From Acidimicrobiia bacterium (GTDB lineage Bacteria; Actinomycetota; Acidimicrobiia; IMCC26256; JAENVU01): a DNA stretch of 37,920 nucleotides. The DNA lies in the NCBI GenBank assembly GCA_009694415.1, contig SHUZ01000006.1, positions 1-37,920 of the forward strand. Direction: 5' to 3'. Positions 22,004 through 35,037 of the stretch are shown piece by piece. The notes under the pieces are model-generated. The model was not told where the DNA came from and did no database searches. It saw only the letters and a list, made by a program, of their open reading frames with translations. How positions within the stretch are numbered: the stretch's first letter is position 1; the number at the start of each line of letters is the position of its first letter. Both the position numbers and the translations under genes were made by a program.

Positions 22004-22063
22004 GTTTCAACACGCGTTTTGAGCACCAGGGTGTCCCCTTTCGGCACCGAAATAGGGCGGGGT
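22004..22063 (+). repeat. Multi-palindrome intergenic repeat, copy 1
   Basis: GTTTCAACACGCGTTTTGAGCACCAGGGTGTCCCCTTTCGGCACCGAAATAGGGCGGGGT. Confidence 0.9.
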
Positions 22064-22128
22064 CCACGGAGGAGGCGCTGCCTGTCTGTAGCGTCTATTG
22101 ACGTAAGCACCCTTGATTGGAGACCGCC

Positions 22129-22236
22129 ATGTCCCAAGTCTCGCCCCCCGGAGAACCAACCCCGAGAGGAAACGCAGAGTTCAACGTTGGCGCTGCGCTT
22201 AGTTATACCTGGAAAACGTTCAATATGCATACCTAG
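22129..22236 (+). pseudogene. Truncated N-terminus of a putative integral membrane protein (35-codon ORF)
   Basis: ATG TCC ... TAG = MSQVSPPGEPTPRGNAEFNVGAALSYTWKTFNMHT*; GGAG upstream; 'F(N/D)VGAALSYxWKxF' resembles the start of actinobacterial membrane-domain proteins. Confidence 0.4.
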
Positions 22237-22305
22237 CGCTCAACTGTGAGTCAGTCGCCCCGATTGCTCAATAATTAAGCGACCAAAAGAAAAGGAGAAA
22301 TAACT

Positions 22306-22686
22306 ATGGAACTTGCAGCACCAGGAAGCAGTGAAGGATTCCTAGCGGTCGTCTACATCTTCTACATCGCAATACTTGTCTTCATTTTGGCGGGATTATG
22401 GAAAACATTCGCCAAGACCGGCCAAAGAGGCTGGACTGCGATCATTCCGATCCTGAATTCTGTGGTCCTGTTGAAGATCGTGAAGCGCCCACTCTGGTGG
22501 ATCATTCTGTTTTTCATTCCTTGCGTCGGGTTCGTCGTATGGATCATCGTTCTCAACGAGTTGTCCAAAGCGTTCGGCAAGCGAGTCGGGTTCACGGTCG
22601 GTTTGTTTCTGTTAGGTTTTGTCTTCTTCCCGATCCTTGGATTCGGAGACGCCGAATACGAACTCGAGAAGGATCCGCTCTTCTAA
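22306..22686 (+). CDS. Small integral membrane protein, DUF5684/signal-peptidase-I-like
   Basis: GWTAIIPILNSVVLLKIVKRPLWWIILFFIPCVGFVVWIIVLNELSKAFGKRVGFTVGLFLLGFVFFPILGFGDAEY; upstream RBS aaggag. Confidence 0.75.
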   Translation: MELAAPGSSEGFLAVVYIFYIAILVFILAGLWKTFAKTGQRGWTAIIPILNSVVLLKIVKRPLWWIILFFIPCVGFVVWIIVLNELSKAFGKRVGFTVGLFLLGFVFFPILGFGDAEYELEKDPLF

Positions 22687-22710
22687 ATACCAGCCCCAGA
22701 AATCAGTGCA

Positions 22711-22745
22711 CAAGGCCCGGGCACTATGCCCGGGCCTTGTTGTTT
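22711..22745 (+). terminator. Intrinsic terminator: perfect 13-bp stem CAAGGCCCGGGCA-CTA-TGCCCGGGCCTTG plus T-rich tail
   Basis: Read directly; 25 bp after the DUF5684-like CDS. Confidence 0.9.
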
Positions 22746-22770
22746 CGCGACCCACTTCACTCGGGTGCGG

Positions 22771-23193
22771 TCAGGTGGTAGTGCCGAGCCACGAGAAAGG
22801 AGTGCCGTTGAGGTTGCGTACAACCCAGAACGCAATCAACAGAAGCACAGCTGGTGCAATCCAGAAGTTTGGGAGATCGATACTGCGCCATGTCGGACCG
22901 CCCAACGCCTTCGTCAGCCAAACGAACATCGCCCAGAAAATGAAAGGGATGGCCAGGACCGCGAGGATATTGAAATCGACAGCCGCGCCAACGTTGCCCC
23001 GAAAGAGGTGGTGTGCCGCTCGGGTACCGCCGCAGCCAGGACAATCGAGACCCGTAACCGCGCGGAACGGGCAAACTGGCGGCCCCCCTGTCGGATCAAC
23101 GATTCCCACGACAGCACACCCGACTACAAGCAGCGCGCCTGCGAGTACCGGACCAGCTACCGGTCGACGCACGCGCGCTGACGTCACAATCAT
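22771..23193 (-). CDS. DUF2752 family membrane protein
   Basis: GPPVCPFRAVTGLDCPGCGGTRAAHHLFRGNVGAAVDFN. Confidence 0.88.
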   Translation of the reverse strand: MIVTSARVRRPVAGPVLAGALLVVGCAVVGIVDPTGGPPVCPFRAVTGLDCPGCGGTRAAHHLFRGNVGAAVDFNILAVLAIPFIFWAMFVWLTKALGGPTWRSIDLPNFWIAPAVLLLIAFWVVRNLNGTPFSWLGTTT

Positions 23194-23216
23194 GGCGCCA
23201 GACTAAGCCAATCCCC

Positions 23217-23280
23217 GTTTCAACACGCGTTTTGAGCACCAGGGTGCTCAGATTCAGCGATGTAATGGAGCGTTGGGGTT
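23217..23280 (+). repeat. Multi-palindrome intergenic repeat, copy 2
   Basis: GTTTCAACACGCGTTTTGAGCACCAGGGTGCTCAGATTCAGCGATGTAATGGAGCGTTGGGGTT. Confidence 0.92.
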
Positions 23281-23286
23281 GTGCAA

Positions 23287-23901
23287 CTACGTCGTTACCT
23301 CTCGACGGCCTTCTAGGGCTCTTCCTAGCGTCACTTCGTCTGCGTATTCCAAGTCGCCGCCCACTGGCAGTCCACTCGCTATCCGCGTAACACGCACGTC
23401 GGGCGCAACTTCTTTGACCGCCCGAGCCAAGTACATCGCCGTGACTTCGCCATCGGTGTTGGGGTTAGTAGCCAAAATCACTTCAGTCACGCCCTCCGCG
23501 CGTACGCGATCCAACAACTCGCGAACCCGCAGTTGATCTGGACCGACTCCCTCGATCGGCGAGATCGTTCCCTGCAGCACGTGATACCTGCCAACAAACT
23601 CGTGTGTCCGCTCAACCGCGACGATGTCGCGCGGTTCTTCCACAACACACAGGACCGTCAAGTCCCTTCGTCCATCACGACAGAACGAACACAAGTCGCC
23701 CTCCGCGATGTTGAAACACACATTGCACCAAGAAATTCGCTCCTTGACTTCGACAATCGCTGCGGCAAGACGGTTCGCGTCTTCTGCTGGAATCTTGAGC
23801 AAGTGGTACGCAATGCGCTGAGCGGACTTCGGACCAATTCCTGGCAACCGCCCTAGTTCGTCGATGACCCGTTGAACGGGTCCCTCGTAGAGCGATGCCA
23901 C
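23287..23901 (-). CDS. recR: Recombination protein RecR
   Basis: [62 protein letters not shown]. Confidence 0.97.
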
Positions 23902-23910
23902 TGGAACCCG

Positions 23911-24240
23911 TTAGCCAAGCCCGAAGGCAGAGAGATCTAGGCCTCCGGTTACGCCACCCATCCGTTGCGATTGCAACTCTTGACTCATCCGCATCGCTTC
24001 AGTCACGGCAGCGAGAACGAGGTCCTCAAGCATCTCGACATCTTCAGGGTCAACAACCTCGGGCGCAATCGATACAGAGCGCAACTCGCCAGAACCCGTC
24101 ACGACCGCCGTGACCAATCCGCCACCGGCACTCGCTTCGACAGTCTCCGATGCGAGTGCCTCCTGGGCAGCGACCATGTCTTCTTGCATCTTCTGCACTT
24201 GGCGCATCATCGGATTTACTTGCGGCTTCTGCTTCGACAC
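23911..24240 (-). CDS. YbaB/EbfC family nucleoid-associated protein
   Basis: MRQVQKMQEDMVAAQEALASETVEASAGGGLVTAVVTGSGELRSVSIAPEVVDPEDVEMLEDLV; start trimmed to GTG 24240 after GAGGGAG. Confidence 0.93.
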   Translation of the reverse strand: MSKQKPQVNPMMRQVQKMQEDMVAAQEALASETVEASAGGGLVTAVVTGSGELRSVSIAPEVVDPEDVEMLEDLVLAAVTEAMRMSQELQSQRMGGVTGGLDLSAFGLG

Positions 24241-24271
24241 GATGTGCTCCCTCGGTGGTGTCGTGCCCGGG

Positions 24272-26125
24272 CTAGCGGGGCTGTTCGGTGACCACGGTCG
24301 CGCCAAATGCGGTCTCGAGGCGGGAAATGGAATCTAGTGCGGGCATGCCTTCGGGTGGAGAGTCTTGGAGTTCATCGGGATCAACAAGATCGATGTGGGG
24401 TTCATCGGAGTCCGCACTCTCCTTCAATTCGGCAGCCGCCGCGTGCGCTTCACGACGAGCGCGAGGGCCCTCGTCGACAGCCCATTCATGAATCGCGAAT
24501 GAGAATTTCGGGGGAGAACCCAACTCGACAATGAACGCTTTTCGAATCGTGTCGGCTTCTTTGTGGAATCGCGGCCTCACGGAGTCCATGCGCGACTTCT
24601 CGACACCGAATACAACAACGTTTCCATCTACGCGTAATGGATGCGCGTCTTGAACTGCGGTCCTCAAACCTCGTGGAAGTGCTTCGAGTACCCGCTCCCA
24701 CGCGGCTACAGCATCGTCGAGCGAGAATGTTGGAGCAACCTCGGCAGGCTCGTTCGCTACGGCCTCGTTCGCTACGGCCTCGTTCGCTACGGCCTCGTTC
24801 GCTACAGGTGCTGGGGTGGGCGGCGCTTCTGTGATTGGTGCTGGCGGCGGCACAACGTCGGCGTCGTTCCCCTTGCGGAACGCGCCAAGCGCTCGCTTCT
24901 TGCCGGTCACTTCACTTGGTAATGGCGCGGAGGCTGCGGGAGCAGGCGTAGGCGCCGCCTCTGCCGAGACAACTCCCCTCGCCTCTAAGCGATCGACGCG
25001 ATCTGCAAGTGCCTGCAACGGCCCACCCGTATCGCGGCGCGCAAGGCGGACCAACGCAATTTCTAACGTGAGACGCGGATCAATCGCTTCGCGGGAACGC
25101 ATGTCATTGACGGCTTGACCAAGTGTCTCGAGCGAGCGGACAAGCGCTGCATTGCCAAGCGTCTCACCAGCCGCGCGCACGCGTACAAGTTCATCGTCTG
25201 GTGCATCGACTACGACGCGCCCGCGGCCTGCAGTCAGAACGAACGCGTCGCGCAAGGTACGGAGTAGATCTTCGGCGACCCGGCGCGGTTCATGGCCAGC
25301 GTCTAGCAACGCTGCCGCGCCGGCTAGCGCCCCAGCAGGATCTTCGGCACCTATCGCATCGAGCACTGCGAGCCGCGCCTCTAATGGTGCGCCGCCGAGC
25401 GATCGCTCTACATGTTCGACAGTTAGCGAACCATCTGATTGGGCAAGAACACGATCCAGCACGGACAATGCATCGCGCGCAGAGCCCTTACCGGCGCGCG
25501 CAATTATCGCCAATGCTTCGGGTGCAGCTTCGACGCCTTCGTTCGTAAGCACATTCTGAAGAGTCGTTACTAGGTCCTCTGAAGAGAGCAACGAGAAATC
25601 GAAGTGCTGAGTGCGTGATCTGACTGTCGGCAGCACTTTGTCGGTTTCAGTGGTTGCCAATATGAACACGACATGCGCGGGTGGTTCTTCAAGAGTCTTG
25701 AGCAACGTGTTCGATGCTTCTTTGGTGAGCATGTGAACTTCGTCGAGCAGATACACCTTGCGTTTCGAAGTCGCACCGAGCCCGAGATTGATGCGCGCGA
25801 CAAGGTCTCGAGCATCATCGACACCGCGGTTAGAAGCGGCGTCGAGTTCGATCAGATCACTGAAAGTGCCGCGCGTAATGGACTCACAGTTTTCACACAC
25901 ACAACACGGTTCTCCGTCGTCACCGAGGTCGAGGCAGTTGACGGCTTTAGCGAGAATGCGCGCTGTCGTGGTCTTGCCGGTACCACGGGGTCCCGATAAC
26001 AAATATGCATGCCCGACGCGTCCCTCGCTCACTGCGTTGCGTAACGAAGTCGTGACGTGGTCTTGGCCGATGAGTTCGGCAAAGCGTTGCGGGCGGTACT
26101 TTCGATATAGGGACTGGTATGTCAC
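24272..26125 (-). CDS. dnaX: DNA polymerase III subunit gamma/tau
   Basis: YQSLYRKYRPQRFAELIGQDHVTTSLRNAV; LLSGPRGTGKTTTARILAKAVNC; CCVCENCESI; LDEVHMLTKEASNTLLKTLEEPP. Start trimmed to GTG 26125. Confidence 0.96.
   Translation of the reverse strand: MTYQSLYRKYRPQRFAELIGQDHVTTSLRNAVSEGRVGHAYLLSGPRGTGKTTTARILAKAVNCLDLGDDGEPCCVCENCESITRGTFSDLIELDAASNRGVDDARDLVARINLGLGATSKRKVYLLDEVHMLTKEASNTLLKTLEEPPAHVVFILATTETDKVLPTVRSRTQHFDFSLLSSEDLVTTLQNVLTNEGVEAAPEALAIIARAGKGSARDALSVLDRVLAQSDGSLTVEHVERSLGGAPLEARLAVLDAIGAEDPAGALAGAAALLDAGHEPRRVAEDLLRTLRDAFVLTAGRGRVVVDAPDDELVRVRAAGETLGNAALVRSLETLGQAVNDMRSREAIDPRLTLEIALVRLARRDTGGPLQALADRVDRLEARGVVSAEAAPTPAPAASAPLPSEVTGKKRALGAFRKGNDADVVPPPAPITEAPPTPAPVANEAVANEAVANEAVANEPAEVAPTFSLDDAVAAWERVLEALPRGLRTAVQDAHPLRVDGNVVVFGVEKSRMDSVRPRFHKEADTIRKAFIVELGSPPKFSFAIHEWAVDEGPRARREAHAAAAELKESADSDEPHIDLVDPDELQDSPPEGMPALDSISRLETAFGATVVTEQPR
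24749..24805. repeat. 15-bp tandem repeat (CTCGTTCGCTACGGC, ~3.8 copies) within dnaX, encoding (NEAVA)n
   Basis: Identical units read at 24749, 24764, 24779, 24794. Confidence 0.97.
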
Positions 26126-26257
26126 AGGTTGGACCTTACCGCCGTGTACGGACGTCGACTTCGTAACTAAATGCGGACCGTGCACCCGCCTTCGACCCGA
26201 CGCCCTAGGACGCGCCGTTCGCATTCGGCTCAGACCAGGCAACCCTACGGCACACAA

Positions 26258-26345
26258 GATTGCCCGCTGAGAGCTGCTTCCTTCCGGACCTGACTCGATT
26301 CACGAGATCCCATTGCGTAGGACCCGGCCCTCGACGTCAAACGCG
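26258..26345 (-). ncRNA. ffs: Signal recognition particle RNA (4.5S/small type); ends approximate
   Basis: Minus strand GGGCCGGGTCCTACGCAATGGGATCTCGTGAATCGAGTCAGGTCCGGAAGGAAGCAGCTCTCAGCGGGCAA contains the conserved SRP apical motif CAGGTCCGGAAGGAAGCAGC; location upstream of dnaX. Confidence 0.9.
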
Positions 26346-26546
26346 AGTCGCCTTTCCTATGACGGCTCGGGCCTTAGACAGGGATTCAGCCCCCCATACG
26401 TGGATTTGGGGTACAGGGCACCACGAACTCCCCACTTAGCACGGTCCGCGTGCGAACGGTAGCAGCGGCTGCACGGCACACAGAATCCGATGGTGGCCCA
26501 ACTACGATCCACTCCTTGCAGCGACTCGCAAAACGCGTCTCTGCTT

Positions 26547-26634
26547 GGAGGGATGCGAGAGCGGCCGAATCGGCACGCTTGGAAAGCGTGTGTGGGGAAA
26601 CTCACCGTGGGTTCGAATCCCACTCCCTCCGCCA
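26547..26634 (+). tRNA. tRNA-Ser(GGA), CCA encoded
   Basis: GGAGGGATGCGAGAGCGGCCGAATCGGCACGCTTGGAAAGCGTG...GTGGGTTCGAATCCCACTCCCTCCGCCA; anticodon GGA; long variable arm. Confidence 0.95.
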
Positions 26635-26640
26635 ATCTGC

Positions 26641-26686
26641 GGCGCTCCGACTAATCCCGGTCTATGCAAATGTCATACGGAGCGCC
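26641..26686 (+). other. Inverted repeat GGCGCTCCG...CGGAGCGCC (9-bp perfect arms, 28-nt loop) downstream of tRNA-Ser
   Basis: Read directly. Confidence 0.5.
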
Positions 26687-26728
26687 TAGAGTGCCCTCGT
26701 TCTATTGCAGATGATCCGGGAGACGACA

Positions 26729-27628
26729 ATGTCTAGGTTGACGAATAAGGCACGCACGGCGGTTGTTGTAGGTGTAATCGCGGGCCTCGGGGTAACGGGA
26801 ATAGCCGGTGGAGCCGCAACGAAGGAAGCAACGCGCGTAACGCTCGGCGCGTCCCAGCCTGCCAATGCGCCAGGGCAGAGCCTCGCATTAGCCCGCGTGA
26901 CCATTCCGGGGGGCGTGACGTTGTCGGAGCACTACCACGAGGGAACTCAAGTAGCCCGCGTGATGTCCGGCAGGCTGAGCTATACGCTGGCCAGTGGGAC
27001 AGCCCTGCTAACGAGGGCTGGCACGACGAACGCGATTCAGATAGCTGGACCCAAGACGATTGTGTTGCGAAGAGGCGACACGATCGTGGAAAACGCTGGT
27101 CTCGCGCACTTTTCTGAGAATAAGACCAAGCGCCCCGTGATCATCATCTTGACCTCATTGCTAGCCAATGGAGCTCCTTCAGCGACCCCCGTTGGTAAGG
27201 GCGCGCCCGGCACTCCAATCACGATCAAGTCAGTGATTGCGTCTACCGGCAAGACCACATACTCCGTTGGACCGGAAGGCGAGCACACTTACGGCCAGAA
27301 CCGCTTGGTTGGACCATCGACCGTTGACGGCCAAGCAGTTATTGTCGAAATGTTGGGGAACGTCAACTACACGAACGGTAGCGGTCCCACATTCGGCTTC
27401 GTCACCTTCATGTTCGCCGACGGCTCAACACTTGCAACCACCTTCGCTGGAATATCCCAAGCGACCGCAGAAGGTGGCGCCAACTTCACCACAACTATGG
27501 GCGTGATCGGTGGCACCGGAAAGTACGCCGCGGTTACAGGCGGCACGGGAACCTTCATCGGCTCGCGCACAGCGGCCATTGGTGCGAACGTGGAAAGCAC
27601 GTTCTCGCTTCGCCTTATCAACAACTGA
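26729..27628 (+). CDS. Secreted cupin-domain protein with C-terminal allene-oxide-cyclase-like barrel
   Basis: Signal peptide/TM (TAVVVGVIAGLGVTGIAGGAA); cupin motif LSEHYHEGTQVARVMSGRLSYTL; C-terminal GFVTFMFADGSTLATTFAG...GVIGGTGKYAAVTGGTGTFIGSR. Start trimmed to ATG 26729. Confidence 0.7.
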   Translation: MSRLTNKARTAVVVGVIAGLGVTGIAGGAATKEATRVTLGASQPANAPGQSLALARVTIPGGVTLSEHYHEGTQVARVMSGRLSYTLASGTALLTRAGTTNAIQIAGPKTIVLRRGDTIVENAGLAHFSENKTKRPVIIILTSLLANGAPSATPVGKGAPGTPITIKSVIASTGKTTYSVGPEGEHTYGQNRLVGPSTVDGQAVIVEMLGNVNYTNGSGPTFGFVTFMFADGSTLATTFAGISQATAEGGANFTTTMGVIGGTGKYAAVTGGTGTFIGSRTAAIGANVESTFSLRLINN

Positions 27629-27690
27629 CGACCTAACTATGCGGTGACCCAAGGTCCCCGACACTAACCAAACACAACCAGAGGAAACCT

Positions 27691-28965
27691 ATGCGCAAAT
27701 TGATCATCACCGCAGTTGTTATCGCCACGCTCGGCCTAGCTGGCTGTTCTAACAGCGACTCCGACGGCGAGTCCTCGGATAAACCAATCAAGGTCGGTGC
27801 ACTTCTCGACTTGACCGGCCCCGGCAAGACCCTCGGTATCGCAAGTAAAGCCGCTCTCGAAGCAGGCGTCATAGACGCTAAGGCCGACGGAGTAACCGTG
27901 GAACTAACCGTTGTCGATACCGGCAGCGTCCCTGCGACGGCGCTCTCTGAGATGCAGAGCCTGTTTGGCAAAGGTATCCACGCATTCGTAGGACCGCAAT
28001 CGAGTTCGGAGGCGCGCGAAATCCTTCCGGCGGCACAGGAGGCCGGTGCGATCATTGTGAGCCAAGGAAGTACGGCGTCGTCGCTCGCATTCGACAACGA
28101 CGCGCTCTTCCGCATGTTGCCTACCGACGTTGTAGAGGGCAAGGCAGCCGCGGACCTCATCACGAGCGGTGTCAAGACCTACGCGGTCGTGGCACATCGC
28201 GATGATGCCGGAAACAACGGACTCGCAAAGACGGTTACGGGCGATGTCACCGCGAACGGTGGCATCGTGATACCAGGTCCTTCTTATGCCCCAGACGCAA
28301 CAAACTTCGGACCGATCGCAGCGTTGATCGGCGCGACCATCGATGGCGCCCGTGCAGAGGCGAAGGCCGCTGGCGGTGAGACCCGCGTAGTGCTCTACCT
28401 CGCAGGATTCGATGAAGTCGCCTCGATTGCTACAGAGGCGGCCAAACTGAAGGCGTTTGATGGCATTCCGTGGTTTGGTGGCGACGGGTCTGCACAGAGT
28501 GCTGCGCTCATCGCGAATGCCTCGACAGACGCTTTCCTTGTCGAGCAAGCTGCCGGATATGACAGCCCGCTTCCGACGCTCGGCCGCGATAAGAAGCCTC
28601 CCTCCGACGCCCTTAACGCAGCATTGAACCCGTACGACAAAATTGATGATCCCCTACCGCTGGGCGCGTACGACGCCCTGATGCTGATCATCGAGGCACA
28701 GCAATCTGCTGGCACCACGGCGATCGGGCCCAAGCTTTGGAGCGCATTCGCCACGGCAGCAGAGACATACACCGGCGTCACAGGTGCAACGGTCCTCAAC
28801 TCGGCTGGCGACCGTGCATCCGGGGAGTTCGGGTACTGGGGTGTCTGCGTTGCCGAAGCGGGATTCGAATGGCATATGAACGGAACCTGGGTGCCACCGA
28901 AGGCCTCCGCGACACTTGGAACCATCGAGTACTGGGGATGCGGCAAGGACTCGGTCAGTAAGTAA
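27691..28965 (+). CDS. ABC transporter substrate-binding lipoprotein (branched-chain amino-acid/LivK type)
   Basis: Lipobox LAGCSN; IKVGALLDLTGPGKTLGIASKAALEAGV; FVGPQSSSEAREILPAAQEAGAIIVSQGSTASSLA. Confidence 0.88.
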   Translation: MRKLIITAVVIATLGLAGCSNSDSDGESSDKPIKVGALLDLTGPGKTLGIASKAALEAGVIDAKADGVTVELTVVDTGSVPATALSEMQSLFGKGIHAFVGPQSSSEAREILPAAQEAGAIIVSQGSTASSLAFDNDALFRMLPTDVVEGKAAADLITSGVKTYAVVAHRDDAGNNGLAKTVTGDVTANGGIVIPGPSYAPDATNFGPIAALIGATIDGARAEAKAAGGETRVVLYLAGFDEVASIATEAAKLKAFDGIPWFGGDGSAQSAALIANASTDAFLVEQAAGYDSPLPTLGRDKKPPSDALNAALNPYDKIDDPLPLGAYDALMLIIEAQQSAGTTAIGPKLWSAFATAAETYTGVTGATVLNSAGDRASGEFGYWGVCVAEAGFEWHMNGTWVPPKASATLGTIEYWGCGKDSVSK

Positions 28966-28971
28966 GTGGTT

Positions 28972-29005
28972 AGGTCCCTCTACGCTGCCCGGCGTGGAGG
29001 GACTT
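28972..29005 (+). promoter_or_regulatory. Stem-loop AGGTCCCTCTACGC-TGCCCG-GCGTGGAGGGACTT between the lipoprotein gene and tadA
   Basis: 14 pairs including 2 G-U; the 3' arm contains GGAGGG just upstream of ATG 29015. Confidence 0.6.
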
Positions 29006-29014
29006 GATCACCTA

Positions 29015-29452
29015 ATGGGCATCGCTCTCGACGAAGCTCGCTTGGCCGCCAAGCATGGCGACGTACCTGTAGGAGCCGTCGTGGCGCGTGTCGACTCTGG
29101 CGAAGTTCTGGCGCGGCGTCACAACGAACGCGAACTAACGAATGACCCGACTGCACACGCCGAGGTGCTCGCGCTGCGAGACGCTGCGACTGCGTTAGGG
29201 AACTGGCGCCTCGACGGTTGCGCGTTGGTCGTAACGCTCGAGCCTTGCCCGATGTGTATAGGTGCTGCACTCAACGCGCGCATCGACACGATTGTTTTTG
29301 GAGCAACTGATCCGAAAGCAGGAGCAGCGGGAAGTTTGTACAACCTCGCGGTTGATCCGCGCCTCAACCATGAGTGCAAGGTTATCCACGGAGTGCGCTC
29401 GGAGGACTCTGCTGCTCTCCTCCGCGAGTTTTTTGTAGCCCGTAGAGCATGA
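29015..29452 (+). CDS. tadA: tRNA-specific adenosine deaminase
   Basis: DVPVGAVV; NDPTAHAEVLALRDAA; LVVTLEPCPMCIGAALNARIDTIVFGATDPKAGAAGSL. Start ATG 29015 or GTG 28994. Confidence 0.93.
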   Translation: MGIALDEARLAAKHGDVPVGAVVARVDSGEVLARRHNERELTNDPTAHAEVLALRDAATALGNWRLDGCALVVTLEPCPMCIGAALNARIDTIVFGATDPKAGAAGSLYNLAVDPRLNHECKVIHGVRSEDSAALLREFFVARRA

Positions 29453-29476
29453 GACTCGACCGGTAGACTCGACGGA

Positions 29477-29490
29477 GTACCGATCGGTAC
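29477..29490. promoter_or_regulatory. Perfect 14-bp palindrome GTACCGATCGGTAC upstream of tRNA-Ser(CGA)
   Basis: Read directly. Confidence 0.4.
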
Positions 29491-29521
29491 GCGGGAGCGA
29501 CTCAGTGGGTTGCTTCACCGA

Positions 29522-29606
29522 GGAGGGGTGCGAGAGCGGCCGAATCGGATGGTCTCGAAAACCATTGTGGCGCAAGTCACCGTGGGTTCAAATCCCACCC
29601 CCTCCG
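29522..29606 (+). tRNA. tRNA-Ser(CGA), CCA not encoded
   Basis: GGAGGGGTGCGAGAGCGGCCGAATCGGATGGTCTCGAAAACCAT...GTGGGTTCAAATCCCACCCCCTCCG; anticodon CGA. Confidence 0.95.
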
Positions 29607-29672
29607 CTCACCGTCGGCCGCCCCTGGGGCGGTTCGGCGCGCGCGGCACATATTCCGACCGAGGCGACACGC

Positions 29673-29735
29673 GTTTCGACACGCGAAATGCGCACCCTGG
29701 TGCCCCATTTCAGCGCTGAAACAGGATTGGGGTTA
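29673..29735 (+). repeat. Multi-palindrome intergenic repeat, copy 3
   Basis: GTTTCGACACGCGAAATGCGCACCCTGGTGCCCCATTTCAGCGCTGAAACAGGATTGGGGTTA. Confidence 0.9.
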
Positions 29736-30590
29736 GGTCGAGGCTAGGTCGAGGTTTTCATAGATCATCCGCGTCGCTCTGGACCTGTTCATTGTGTAGA
29801 AATGCAGGCCCGGAACGCCGCCATCGATTAACTCCTGACACAACCGCGTCGCTTCTTCGACACCGACAGCGAACACCGCTTCCGGATCCTCTTCGACTGC
29901 ATACAACTTCTTCGCCAACCATGCAGGGAACTCCGAACCTTGCAACTCGGACATCCGTTTGATGCTGCCGATCGCCGTTGCGGGCATGATCCCAGCAATT
30001 ACCGGTCGGTTCACACCAGTAGCGTGCAAGCTTTCTACGAGATCGAAGTAGTGCGCGGCATCGAAGAAAAACTGTGTGATCGCGAAGTCCGCTTCGGAAA
30101 GTTTCTCTGCCGTGTGAGCGCGGTCCGCTTCGATGCTCTGCGAACGCGGGTGGGGTTCGGGATGTGCTGCCACACCGATAGCAAAGTCGCCAACCTCACG
30201 TATCAGACGCACCAATTCGATCGCGTATTCCAATTCGCTCGGTGGAAGATCAAGATCTTTCGGCGCATCGCCGCCTAGGGCAAGGATGTTCTCGATGCCG
30301 GCATCGCGGTAGCGAACAACAATGTCGTGCAGTTCTTGGCGTGAATGCCCAACGCATGTCAGATGGGCCATTGGCGTAATCGACGTATCTCGCAAGATTC
30401 CGGTGACGATCGAATGGGTCTTCTCTCGCGTAGACCCACCAGCCCCGTATGTGACAGAGACGTACGACGGCTGCAGCGGTTCCAACTCTGCAAGCGCCGC
30501 GGTCATCGCCGCCTCGGCTGCAGGCGTACGCGGCGGAAAGAACTCGAAGCTGTAACTCGGGCCGCGAGCGAGTATCTCGGTGATCTTCAT
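29733..30590 (-). CDS. metF: Methylenetetrahydrofolate reductase
   Basis: YSFEFFPPRTPAAEAAM; SVTYGAGGSTREKT; HLTCVGHSRQEL; ALGGDAP; TQFFFDAAHY. Confidence 0.95.
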   Translation of the reverse strand: MKITEILARGPSYSFEFFPPRTPAAEAAMTAALAELEPLQPSYVSVTYGAGGSTREKTHSIVTGILRDTSITPMAHLTCVGHSRQELHDIVVRYRDAGIENILALGGDAPKDLDLPPSELEYAIELVRLIREVGDFAIGVAAHPEPHPRSQSIEADRAHTAEKLSEADFAITQFFFDAAHYFDLVESLHATGVNRPVIAGIMPATAIGSIKRMSELQGSEFPAWLAKKLYAVEEDPEAVFAVGVEEATRLCQELIDGGVPGLHFYTMNRSRATRMIYENLDLAST

Positions 30591-30644
30591 GAAGAGCCCA
30601 TATTACGCGAGACTCCATACAAACCGGACCGACCAGGAGAACTT

Positions 30645-31136
30645 GTGGACTTTCAAATTGTGCAAAAGATCGACGGCGACTTGGATGCCGTCGAAGCAGC
30701 CTTGGTTGATCCGGCCTTCCTCGTCCGCATGACAGAACTCCCCAAACTCGGATCTGCCGAAGTAATCAACCAGGAGCGCGACGGCGATGTAGTGCGTCAG
30801 CAGGTGCGCTACCTCTTTGAAGCGGATCTCTCCGGCGCCGTTACAAAGGTCGTCGATCCCAAACTTCTCACTTGGGTGGAGGACTCAACGTGCGACCTGG
30901 CATCGCACCGCACAACATGCAAGATCCTGCCCGATCACTACCAAGACCTTTTGAGCGCGCGGTTCGACGCGGAGATGACGGCTGATGGCGGACAAACGAT
31001 TCGAACGATCAGCGGGAGTTTGAAGGTAAAAATACTGCTCGTAGGTGGACGCGTGGAACGCTCGATATTGGGGGGTCTCGAAGAGAACGCCGTAGCGCAA
31101 GCGGCGCTTCTCGCAGCCTGGATCGCAGCTAAGTAG
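30645..31136 (+). CDS. DUF2505 family protein
   Basis: GTG 30645 after [46 protein letters not shown]...[21 protein letters not shown]. Confidence 0.8.
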
Positions 31137-33372
31137 AGCGGGCGCCTTGAAAGCGACGTAGCCGTAACGAATTGCTCACCACGAACACACTTGAGAAACC
31201 CATGGCTGCTGCCGCGATCATCGGGTTCAGCAATCCGAAAGCCGCAAGCGGAATCGCTGCCACGTTGTATGCGAACGCCCAAAAGAGGTTTCCCTTGATT
31301 GTGGCGAGTGTGCGACGCGACAGTGCGATTGCATCGGCTGCTCCTTGAAGGTTGCCGCTCACCAGCGTCACGTCGCTCGCCTCGATCGCGACGTCGGTAC
31401 CGGTTCCGATCGATATGCCGAGATCTGCTTGCGCTAGTGCCGGTGCATCGTTCACACCATCTCCTACGACCGCTACCTCGTGACCGTCGGCCTGTAATAG
31501 CCGCACGGCAGCAACCTTTTCTTCGGGCATAGCGTCGGCGATTACCTCATCGACTCCAACCGCTCGCGCGATTGCCTCCGCTGTCGCCTTTCGATCTCCC
31601 GTGATCATCACCGTCCGAATACCCAGTTGATGAAGTGCCGAGATCGCTGCAACCGATGTCGGCTTGACCGTATCTGCAACTACAAAAGCTGCGCGCGTCT
31701 TGCCGTCCCATCCAACGAATACCGTTGTACGTCCGAGTTCGGATGCAGCGGTCTCCGCTTCGAGCAATTCGGATGTCGTTTCTCCGATCCACGCACTCCG
31801 CCCAACCAACACATGAACACCATCGACCACAGCGCTAGCGCCGCGGCCCGGTGTGTTCTCGAACTGCGTCGCTGTTCCTAGCTGAAGTCCATTACTGCGC
31901 GCGCCGTTAGCGATGGCGCGCGCAATGGGATGTTCAGACGCGTCCTCGACGGTTGCAGCGAGCGTCATAACCCTTGCCTCGTCCTCACCGTTGGCTACCA
32001 CGAAGTCGACTAGTTCCATGCGTCCTTCCGTGATCGTTCCGGTCTTATCGAGCACAGCTGTATCGATGCGCTTGGTAGCCTCGAGCACTTCGCCACCTTT
32101 GATGACGATTCCCAACTGTGCGCCCCGACCCGTGCCAACCATGATGGCCGTCGGTGTCGCAAGACCGAGCGCGCATGGGCAAGCGACAATGAGTACAGCG
32201 ACGGCTGCAGTGAACGCTTCTGTGGCGGGGTGTCCGGTCGCCATCCAACCAGCGAGAGTAACGGCGGCGATCACCAACACGATCGGAACGAACACCGCAG
32301 ACACCCGATCGGCAAGCCGTTGCACGGGAGCCTTCGAACCCTGTGCCTCCGCGACCAGCCGCGCAATCTGCGCAAGCGCGCTTTCGGATCCCAGCCGCGT
32401 TGCTTCAACTACAAGTCTTCCTGTGGTATTCAGCGAAGCTCCAAAAACTTCTTGGCCAACGAGAACGTCTACCGGTACCGACTCGCCGGTCAGCATCGAC
32501 AAGTCGAGCGAACTCGCACCCTCGACGACCCGACCATCAGTCGCGACCTTCTCGCCGGGACGCACAAGGAACCGATCACCAACTGCAAGACTCGATACCG
32601 GAATCTCATCACCATTTTCGAGGCGCGCGATTTTCGGCGCCATGTCAAGTAGCGCTCGTAGTGCCTCGCTCGACCTGCCGCGCGCTCGCAGCTCAAAATA
32701 TTTGCCGAGAAGCAGCAACGTCATCACGACTGCACCTACTTCGAAGTAGACGTCGGTCTCGGCACCGCTCATCCCTTCCATCGAATTCATCCCAGAGTCG
32801 GCTGCATCGAAAAATACGAGAGCGACTACAGACCACACCCAAGCCGCTGTTGTGCCTAGCGAAACAAGAGTGTCCATCGTGACCGCCCGGTGCCGAAGAT
32901 TCACAAGCGCTGCGCGGTGGTACGGCCATCCCGCCCAGAAAATAACGGGGGTTGCAAGTGCGAACGCCACCCACTGCCAACCGGTAAACATGAACCGCGG
33001 AACCATTGAAATCAACAACAACGGAACGGTTAGAACTGCGGCGAATTTGAAGCGACGCAGCACGTCGGTCGCGCTCGTGTCGTTGTGCACATGGCTCTCG
33101 GCTTGGACTTGGCCGTCGATCGGTTCCGGACTTTGGTACCCAAGCTGCGTAACAACTTCGCGCATCGAGTCTGGAGTAGTCGTCGCAGTGTCGTAACTAA
33201 CCGTCGCGATAGATGTCGCGAAATTGACGTTGCACTCTCTAACACCATCGAGTTGCACAAGGCCACGCTCGATTCGAGCCGCGCACGCCGCGCAGGTCAT
33301 TCCCTCAATCGGCAAGTCAACGCGTGTCACTTGGTGGTGCAGTCCGGCTGTGGGTTGCTGATTCGGTGACAT
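31129..33372 (-). CDS. copA: Heavy-metal (copper) translocating P-type ATPase
   Basis: [21 protein letters not shown] motif [43 protein letters not shown]. Confidence 0.94.
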
Positions 33373-33396
33373 GTCTTGCCTCCTCGCTCGTCGGCG

Positions 33397-33422
33397 ATAT
33401 AGGATACCCCTGTACCCTATAT
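33397..33422. promoter_or_regulatory. Candidate CsoR operator: dyad ATATAGG-ATACCCCTGTAC-CCTATAT between divergent copA and csoR
   Basis: 7-bp perfect arms around a TACCCC core in the divergent intergenic region. Confidence 0.55.
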
Positions 33423-33462
33423 TTAGTCAACTGGGCGACCGACGGCCCACCAGGAGGTTTCA

Positions 33463-33738
33463 GTGCGCGGCTACACGATGCACAAGGACGACTACCAGCG
33501 CCGACTGTCCCGAATCGAAGGCCAGGTACGAGGTCTCTCACGCATGATCGAGGAAGACAAGTACTGCATAGATGTCCTCACTCAGATCGCTTCGGTCTCC
33601 AAGGCATTGCAGGGGGTAGGACTCGGATTGTTGGATGAACACCTTCGCCATTGCGTGCGTGAGGCAGAAGCTCGCGGCGAGGGCGAAGACAAGATCGGCG
33701 AAGCAATCCGAGCAGTAGAACGGCTACTCAGGGTCTGA
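33463..33738 (+). CDS. csoR: Metal-sensitive transcriptional repressor, CsoR family
   Basis: YQRRLSRIEGQVRGLSRMIEEDKYCIDVLTQIASVSKALQGVGLGLLDEHLRHCV; C-x-H-x-C pattern. Confidence 0.93.
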   Translation: MRGYTMHKDDYQRRLSRIEGQVRGLSRMIEEDKYCIDVLTQIASVSKALQGVGLGLLDEHLRHCVREAEARGEGEDKIGEAIRAVERLLRV

Positions 33739-33751
33739 TATTCGCATCTCC

Positions 33752-33810
33752 AGGGCGATCTCGGCACGTTTCGGGCCCTTATAGGGCCTCGAACGTTCCG
33801 AGATTGCCCT
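33752..33810. other. Large imperfect inverted repeat (28-nt arms, TAT loop) between csoR and the FrhB-like gene
   Basis: AGGGCGATCTCGGCACGTTTCGGGCCCT-TAT-AGGGCCTCGAACGTTCCGAGATTGCCCT; 23/28 Watson-Crick, 26/28 with G-U pairs. Confidence 0.85.
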
Positions 33811-33834
33811 TGCGGGTCGTGGCAGACTCGCAAG

Positions 33835-34953
33835 ATGCCTCCCGAGAAACTTTCCTGGAAACACCTCTACGACGAGGTTGTTACCAGCGGCCTCTGCACA
33901 GGCTGTGCTGGATGCGTCATCGCTTGCCCTCACGATGTTCTCGGGTACGACGACTTGAACGGCGTTTACAAGCCACTCCAGACTGAAGACTTCGGTGGGC
34001 CCGGCGATTGCTCGCACGGTGACAAGTCATGCACAAGTTGCACGCGCGCGTGTCCACGCTTTCGCGCTTGGGAACCAGAGATCGACGGCTTCCTGTTCGG
34101 ACGCGCTCGCCAAGCAGAGGAAGTGTCGGGAATATACAAAGACGTCGTGCTCGCACGCGCGACCGATCCCGTGCTGCACGAAGTCGGCCAAGACGGTGGA
34201 CTTGTTTCAGCGATCCTTCTCTACTGTCTCGAGAACGACATCATCGATGCCGCTCTCGTGAGTTACCTCGAAGGTGACGGATCCACCTGGAAAGCGATAC
34301 CGGGCGTTGCGCGCAACAAGGAAGACATCATCGCCTCGGCAGGTAGTCGGTATACCTACTCGGCCAACACGCTCGCCTACACCGAAGCAATCGAGAGCGG
34401 CGCGGAACGCATAGCGCTGGTCGGTATGAGTTGTCAGTCATCTATCCCGCCAGTTATGAAACAACGCAAGGCCGGGAAAGTCGCTCGTCGCCTTGCGCTG
34501 TCAATCGGCCTTTTGTGTTCGAAGACCTTCGACGACGCGATCTTCGAAGAGTTGTTCGAAGCCAAGTACGGACTGAAGCGCGCTGACATGCGCAAAATGA
34601 ATATCAAAGGTGTGTTCCAGATTTGGATGCACAACGGTGACTACCACGAGGTGCCGCTAAAGGAATGTCACGCGTGGACACGCGAGGGCTGCAAGCTCTG
34701 TCCTGACTTTGCGGCAGAGCATGCCGACATATCGACGGGCGGCATCGGCGCATTCAACGACTGGACTCTCACGATCGTGCGCACGGAGATCGGCAGAGAA
34801 ATCATGGCGGGGCTACAAGATGCCGGATGGATAGAGGTGCGCCCCGGAGACGATGACCCGGGAGCAATCGCACTGATGCACAAGTTGGCTGCGAAGTCAC
34901 GCAAGCGTTGGCCCGAGTTCGCCGTCGACGCGCCGCGACTCCTGACTACATAA
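33835..34953 (+). CDS. Coenzyme F420 hydrogenase/dehydrogenase beta-subunit (FrhB) family Fe-S protein
   Basis: CTGCAGCVIACPHDVLGYDD; CTSCTRACPRF; QDGGLVSAILLYCLENDIIDAALVS; REGCKLCPDFAAEHADISTGGIGAF. Confidence 0.88.
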   Translation: MPPEKLSWKHLYDEVVTSGLCTGCAGCVIACPHDVLGYDDLNGVYKPLQTEDFGGPGDCSHGDKSCTSCTRACPRFRAWEPEIDGFLFGRARQAEEVSGIYKDVVLARATDPVLHEVGQDGGLVSAILLYCLENDIIDAALVSYLEGDGSTWKAIPGVARNKEDIIASAGSRYTYSANTLAYTEAIESGAERIALVGMSCQSSIPPVMKQRKAGKVARRLALSIGLLCSKTFDDAIFEELFEAKYGLKRADMRKMNIKGVFQIWMHNGDYHEVPLKECHAWTREGCKLCPDFAAEHADISTGGIGAFNDWTLTIVRTEIGREIMAGLQDAGWIEVRPGDDDPGAIALMHKLAAKSRKRWPEFAVDAPRLLTT

Positions 34954-34974
34954 CCGGATCGGCGCGCGACCTCT

Positions 34975-35037
34975 GTTTCAACACGCGTATTGAGCACCGG
35001 GGTGCTCGGTTTCGGTGCTGAAATAGGGCGGGGGTTA
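34975..35037 (+). repeat. Multi-palindrome intergenic repeat, copy 4
   Basis: GTTTCAACACGCGTATTGAGCACCGGGGTGCTCGGTTTCGGTGCTGAAATAGGGCGGGGGTTA. Confidence 0.92.

Follow-up and report, generated by a model that had tools for sequence, protein, structure and literature searches.

Family A, a REP-like palindromic repeat at gene 3' ends in two related uncultured bacteria

A 37,920-nucleotide stretch of DNA from an Acidimicrobiia bacterium (contig SHUZ01000006.1, hereafter the window) contains four copies of family A, a previously uncatalogued palindromic repeat family of two related uncultured bacteria. Family A is a small new REP-like family that lacks both a RAYT and an end tag; its anatomy and placement resemble those of a REP or MITE relic. 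We interpret it, with a probability of roughly two in three, as an old lineage-restricted, non-autonomous palindromic repeat of the REP/REPIN or MITE kind, which is vertically inherited and decays by deletion.

Family A in the window and in related genomes

De novo repeat search of the window placed the four family A copies at the top of the direct-repeat families. They lie where the earlier note had located them, all on the + strand and none in the first 22 kb (Table 1), and all four align without gaps over a 48-bp core (TTTCRACACGCGNATT, GAGCACCNNGGTGCTC, and NGATTCAGCGCTGAAA in series), which consists of the three 16-mers TTTCRACACGCGNATT, GMGCACCNNGGTGCTC, and NGATTCAGCGCTGAAA. This core is the common part of the 60–64 bp unit described in that note, while the further 12–16 bp (ATAGGGCGGGGGTT) are shared only in part and combine the opening of a second module, since deleted, with sequence up to the stop codon of the neighboring gene; the AGGGCGGGG tail is partly the beginning of the same lost module. 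The flipped center of copy 3 (CACCAGGGTG/CACCCTGGTG) is real, and an AG/CT center polymorphism runs through the whole family in a 29-copy alignment. Four copies within 38 kb form an unusual cluster (Poisson p about 2e-5, post hoc). At 24749–24805, the window also holds three overlapping 27-bp repeats with 15-bp spacing (CTCGTTCGCTACGGC), within a large - strand ORF (24272–26224).

Pattern search of the window's genome (G000; 2.25 Mb, 180 contigs, 80.8% complete) identified 10 intact copies of family A versus 0 for a reversed-pattern control, indicating that the matches are not due to chance. The congener G001 carries 19 copies, 18 found by pattern and one diverged copy found by profile, and the genome-wide scan proposed in the earlier note thus yielded more than the original four. 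The copies in both genomes occur on both strands, with clean 48- or 82-bp boundaries and unrelated flanks. Among 60 related genomes, the pattern matched only in G001; no match came from 58 further genomes within the order and class, nor from pattern search of the congener G002 (98% complete, compared with 81–86% for G000 and G001). G002 does have one decayed relative (L122), at the orthologue of the copy 1 site, that aligns along the entire length of the 82-bp profile (nhmmer E 2.3e-8, small set). Scanning of a genome collection returned family A only in the MAG TH-08apr19-172, in which contig numbers and coordinates match those of G001. This MAG (CAMBEL01) carries the title Bifidobacterium breve, which looks like a mislabel. 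An origin from a virus, phage, or plasmid was rejected, with no family A matches in viral contigs, phages, or plasmids. No Rfam family scored above the gathering threshold, and only generic long-hairpin miRNA models appeared below it; the earlier view that the repeat is not a named family agrees with the finding of no identity to a catalogued one.

Table 1. Palindromic repeats located in the window. G001 and G002 are congeners of the window's genome; F1 is a palindrome of G002 unrelated to family A.
Feature	Position	Strand	Form and surroundings	Orthologous junction
Family A copy 1 (w1)	22005..22052	+	48-bp form plus TAGGGC remnant of second module; 14 bp past thiolase stop codon	Family A copy in G001 (L031)
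Family A copy 2 (w2)	23218..23265	+	21 bp past stop codon of recR (- strand)	82-bp form in G001 (L032); F1 in G002
Family A copy 3 (w3)	29674..29721	+	Between tRNA-Ser(cga) and convergent methylenetetrahydrofolate reductase gene, 11 bp from stop of the latter	F1 in G002
Family A copy 4 (w4)	34976..35023	+	Between convergent genes; 22 and 11 bp to their stop codons	
Family B copy	33756..33804		Between CsoR-like repressor gene and FrhB-like gene; not family A	

Anatomy, folding, and position of the repeats

The fuller form of family A is an 82-bp near-continuous inverted repeat with the ends TTTCRACACGCGAATT... and ...AGATTCAGCGCTGAAA and two inner GAGCACC..GGTGCTC palindromes. A second module follows directly after GAAA in the majority of G001 copies and, in G000, in a single copy on contig C8, giving a total of 82 bp; this form is a single long hairpin with terminal inverted repeats. 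Several such copies form one almost unbroken hairpin when folded (L036, -58.1; L038, -54.7; L041, -50.4 kcal/mol), with a z-score of about -9.9 for L036. At three orthologous sites (C158/L036, w2/L032, and C86/L043), the element measures 48 bp in G000 versus 82 bp in G001. These pairs, together with the 82-bp relative in G002, suggest that 82 bp is likely the older form. The 48-bp form would arise by slippage or recombination between the two modules, which are directly repeated at a distance of 34 bp, and the window copies look like internal-deletion derivatives. The three consecutive palindromes of the earlier description are real (88–89% of cells paired, versus at most about 60% in sliding controls), but they make up only part of the full anatomy, and the copies described there appear to be shortened 82-bp hairpins.

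Covariation in palindromes 2 and 3 among 29 family A copies was no better than in shuffles, which leaves the claim that changes preserve pairing unsupported at this number of copies and lends no support to a structured 3' RNA element. Families B and F1, described below, showed no covariation either. Copies 2 and 4 fold better than shuffled sequence, whereas copy 1 does not. There is no positive evidence of selection on an RNA helix, and the conserved thing is the arm sequences themselves. Intrinsic terminators were rejected as the identity of the hairpins, with no U-tract match at any of the four window copies. The nearly invariant arms and uncompensated spacers of families A, B, and F1, in which sequence rather than helix is conserved, would suit a DNA palindrome bound by a protein and kept at gene ends, such as a nucleoid-protein site or a gyrase-type or DNA-uptake-type signal. 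However, recent common descent of the copies explains arm invariance equally well, and we know of no candidate binder for this palindrome. Uptake sequences reach copy numbers far above those of family A, and we consider a protein-binding palindrome highly improbable.

Genes were called by a purpose-written codon-usage caller and checked by eye and against the ORF list. Tabulation of the positions bore out the earlier placement of the copies near gene or tRNA 3' ends: 19 of 20 sites lie 11–76 bp from such an end, with the nearest stop codon typically 11–45 bp away. The 20 distinct sites comprise 8 convergent junctions (2 with tRNA-Ser or tRNA-SeC as one partner), 11 codirectional junctions behind a stop codon, and 1 divergent junction (L160:10736). 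Convergent junctions account for 40% of the sites versus 15% of intergenic bp (p=0.007) and divergent ones for 1/20 versus 26% (p=0.02), both being indicative only, with small numbers and home-made gene calls. The placement matches that published for REPs, which occur in convergent or unidirectional gaps and lie <20 bp from 3' ends (PMC3733652). Beside the C158 site, a tRNA-SeC (selenocysteine) gene was predicted in G000 (L025:31-124), in G001 (L036:1356-1449), and at the orthologous G002 locus (L120).

Inheritance, loss, and other palindromes at the same junctions

Comparison of G000 and G001 revealed that the majority of G000 copies are matched by a G001 copy at the corresponding junction (w1–w4, C8, C66, C86, C119, and C158, with C22 as a truncated remnant). 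Partial deletions in G000 left remnants at L044, L070, and L076, and at two G001 sites without an intact G000 copy (L072 and L074), a stretch is missing in G000. The shared junctions and the G000 remnants indicate that family A is older than the separation of the two species and that deletions are removing it from G000. One near-clean empty site in G000 (L078) lies in a G run and is the only such site for a target-site duplication, none of which was established for family A; no case beyond doubt was found of a copy inserted in one sister species against an undisturbed empty site in the other.

The earlier note had proposed a REP/BIME-like element near 3' ends and a search for a RAYT (TnpA-REP). 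The anatomy and genomic habit speak for the proposal, whereas the RAYT and the GTAG/CGTC tag are missing: PF01797 was absent from G000, G001, and G002 while controls were found (G000 and G001 being 81–86% complete), and the family A ends, TTTC...GAAA, carry no GTAG or CGTC in the 29-copy alignment and flanks. A canonical REP with RAYT was rejected on the absence of PF01797. Searching both genomes with the head 12-mer detected no insertion sequence with the same ends; outside matches were isolated, and the loci opened were not IS ends. An integron attC was also rejected, as the GTT-R-R-R-Y-like GGGGTTAG behind two copies is the neighbor's reverse stop codon and is not general.

Under our interpretation of family A as an old decaying repeat, the family would have spread before the sister species G000 and G001 separated, presumably by transposition with an enzyme that may be encoded elsewhere or since lost. 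The copies would have settled almost exclusively just behind gene or tRNA 3' ends, where insertion should harm least, and would since have been inherited in place, with deletion of 34-bp modules or of the entire element. The hairpins may also play a part at mRNA 3' ends, where a putative side effect would be stabilization or bidirectional insulation.

Two G001 loci recall attachment-type or composite recombination sites that mobilize gene cassettes. An AbiEi/DUF559 gene lies between two inverted copies (L166:10688-11854), in an entire 1.1-kb segment absent at the G000 junction, and an AMP-binding ligase gene lies between two direct copies of a divergent subtype with GGTCGCC for GAGCACC (L160:9072-10783), beside which a probed fragment matched nothing in either G000 or G002. 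These are two cases only, however, and the close pair w1-w2 brackets no accessory cassette, thiolase and recR flanking alike in G000, G001, and G002, which makes cassette mobilization barely credible.

At several orthologous junctions, G002 carries F1, a 52-bp palindrome (GAAACTGTCGCG...CGCGACAGTTTC) unrelated in sequence to family A. F1 profiles do not find family A, and the family A profile finds only the w1 relative in G002. F1 was found in 2 of 296 class genomes, the match in G051 looking like chance. It is present at 7 of the 12 family A sites with a usable G002 orthologue (w2, w3, C158, C129, L027, L030, and L034-). Two of these, L027 and L030, had led to the discovery of F1, and L034- was picked up by pattern search; with the three ascertained sites left out, F1 is present at 4 of 9. 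Its base rate is about 3% of 3' junctions, estimated from 4 copies in 400 kb (95% interval about 8–77 per genome). The p value of this co-location is about 8e-5, rising to about 3e-3 if the F1 rate is set to its upper bound. Five other F1 sites have no family A in G000/G001. The co-location is real enough to note and can be read in two ways: both families may favor the same junctions, or a palindrome at these junctions may be under selection. The literature offers one precedent, at Xanthomonas recB, where related species carry different REPs in roughly the same position (PMC3733652).

Together with the location of family A directly behind stop codons and the strong hairpins in both strands, the F1 occupancy would fit a selected 3'-end element, acting as a (bidirectional) transcription boundary or as a hairpin that protects the mRNA 3' end, with each lineage supplying its own palindrome family. 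We regard such an element as unlikely: the four window copies have no U-tract terminator, copy 1 folds no better than shuffles, palindromes 2 and 3 do not covary, several G000 sites lost family A with nothing replacing it, the five F1 sites are empty in G000/G001, and the element occupies only a few percent of 3' junctions. It appears distinctly unlikely that particular gene-end junctions in this genus need a palindrome, with family A in G000/G001 swapped wholesale for F1 in G002 and the unrelated hairpins acting as exchangeable boundary parts for 3' ends that disperse as repeats.

Family B (CTCGGCACGNNNNNGGCCCTTATAGGGCCNNNNNCGTGCCGAG; 33756–33804 in the window and L217-L243) is a second genus-wide hairpin repeat, also unrelated in sequence to family A, with 26 copies in G000, 22 in G001, and at least 11 in G002; 58 other genomes have none, and the two sites that were checked are occupied in all three species. 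One family B hairpin (L090:16175-16223, L209, L212), conserved in the three congeners, lies directly before the second start codon in a gap between two codirectional genes that appear to encode ATP synthase subunits. Two other palindromic repeats were observed in G002, F2 (CCGGGTTTGTGCG..GAGGAGCG..CGCTCCTC..CGCACAAACCCGG; L096, L098, L099, L093, and L095) and F3 (TTTGGCGTCA..ACCGCGA..TCGCGGT..TGACGCCAAA; L089, L092, and L098), while a 39-bp hairpin repeat of its own (GGCGTCCTGAAGTGCT..AGCACTTCAGGACGCC; L169:514-552, L178:8079-8117, and L182:17586-17624) is present in G005, of the same family and another genus.

Comparison with known repeat systems

Family A shares with intrinsic terminators, including those of paired uptake signals (PMC1852404), a gene-end hairpin in both orientations, but differs from them in having no U-tract. 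Like the bacterial stem-loop sequence families as presented in the relevant passages of Cozzuto 2008 (PMC2267715), it is repeated and able to fold as stem-loops; the passages searched in this survey of 40 genomes name no Acidimicrobiia, and family A was not matched with any family listed in them. Closer parallels are offered by the GTAG/CGTC-tagged REPs and REPINs (Di Nocera 2013, PMC3733652), which are likewise short intergenic palindromes in dimeric or long-hairpin arrangement, found within about 20 bp of 3' ends in convergent and unidirectional gaps and forming species-specific families. Unlike these, family A has no GTAG or CGTC end tag, no RAYT in the genome, and a low copy number. It is a short extragenic palindrome in many dispersed copies, as REPs are, yet 10–19 copies are low for a REP family and count against a REP-like reading; it is filed only as REP-like because the tested defining features of RAYT-REP families fail. 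With MITEs, family A has in common its non-autonomous nature, inverted-repeat ends, internal deletions, and intergenic location, although no parent insertion sequence with matching ends was found in the two genomes and no target-site duplication was established.

REP-like repeats have mostly been described with GTAG tags and RAYTs, or with CGTC tags. The uncultured actinobacterial clade studied here has several repeat families (A, B, F1, F2, and F3) without a RAYT, of which family A is also untagged, and the different palindromes at orthologous junctions of its congeners make it possible to test directly whether repeats of this kind are passengers that share insertion preferences or are parts useful at gene ends.
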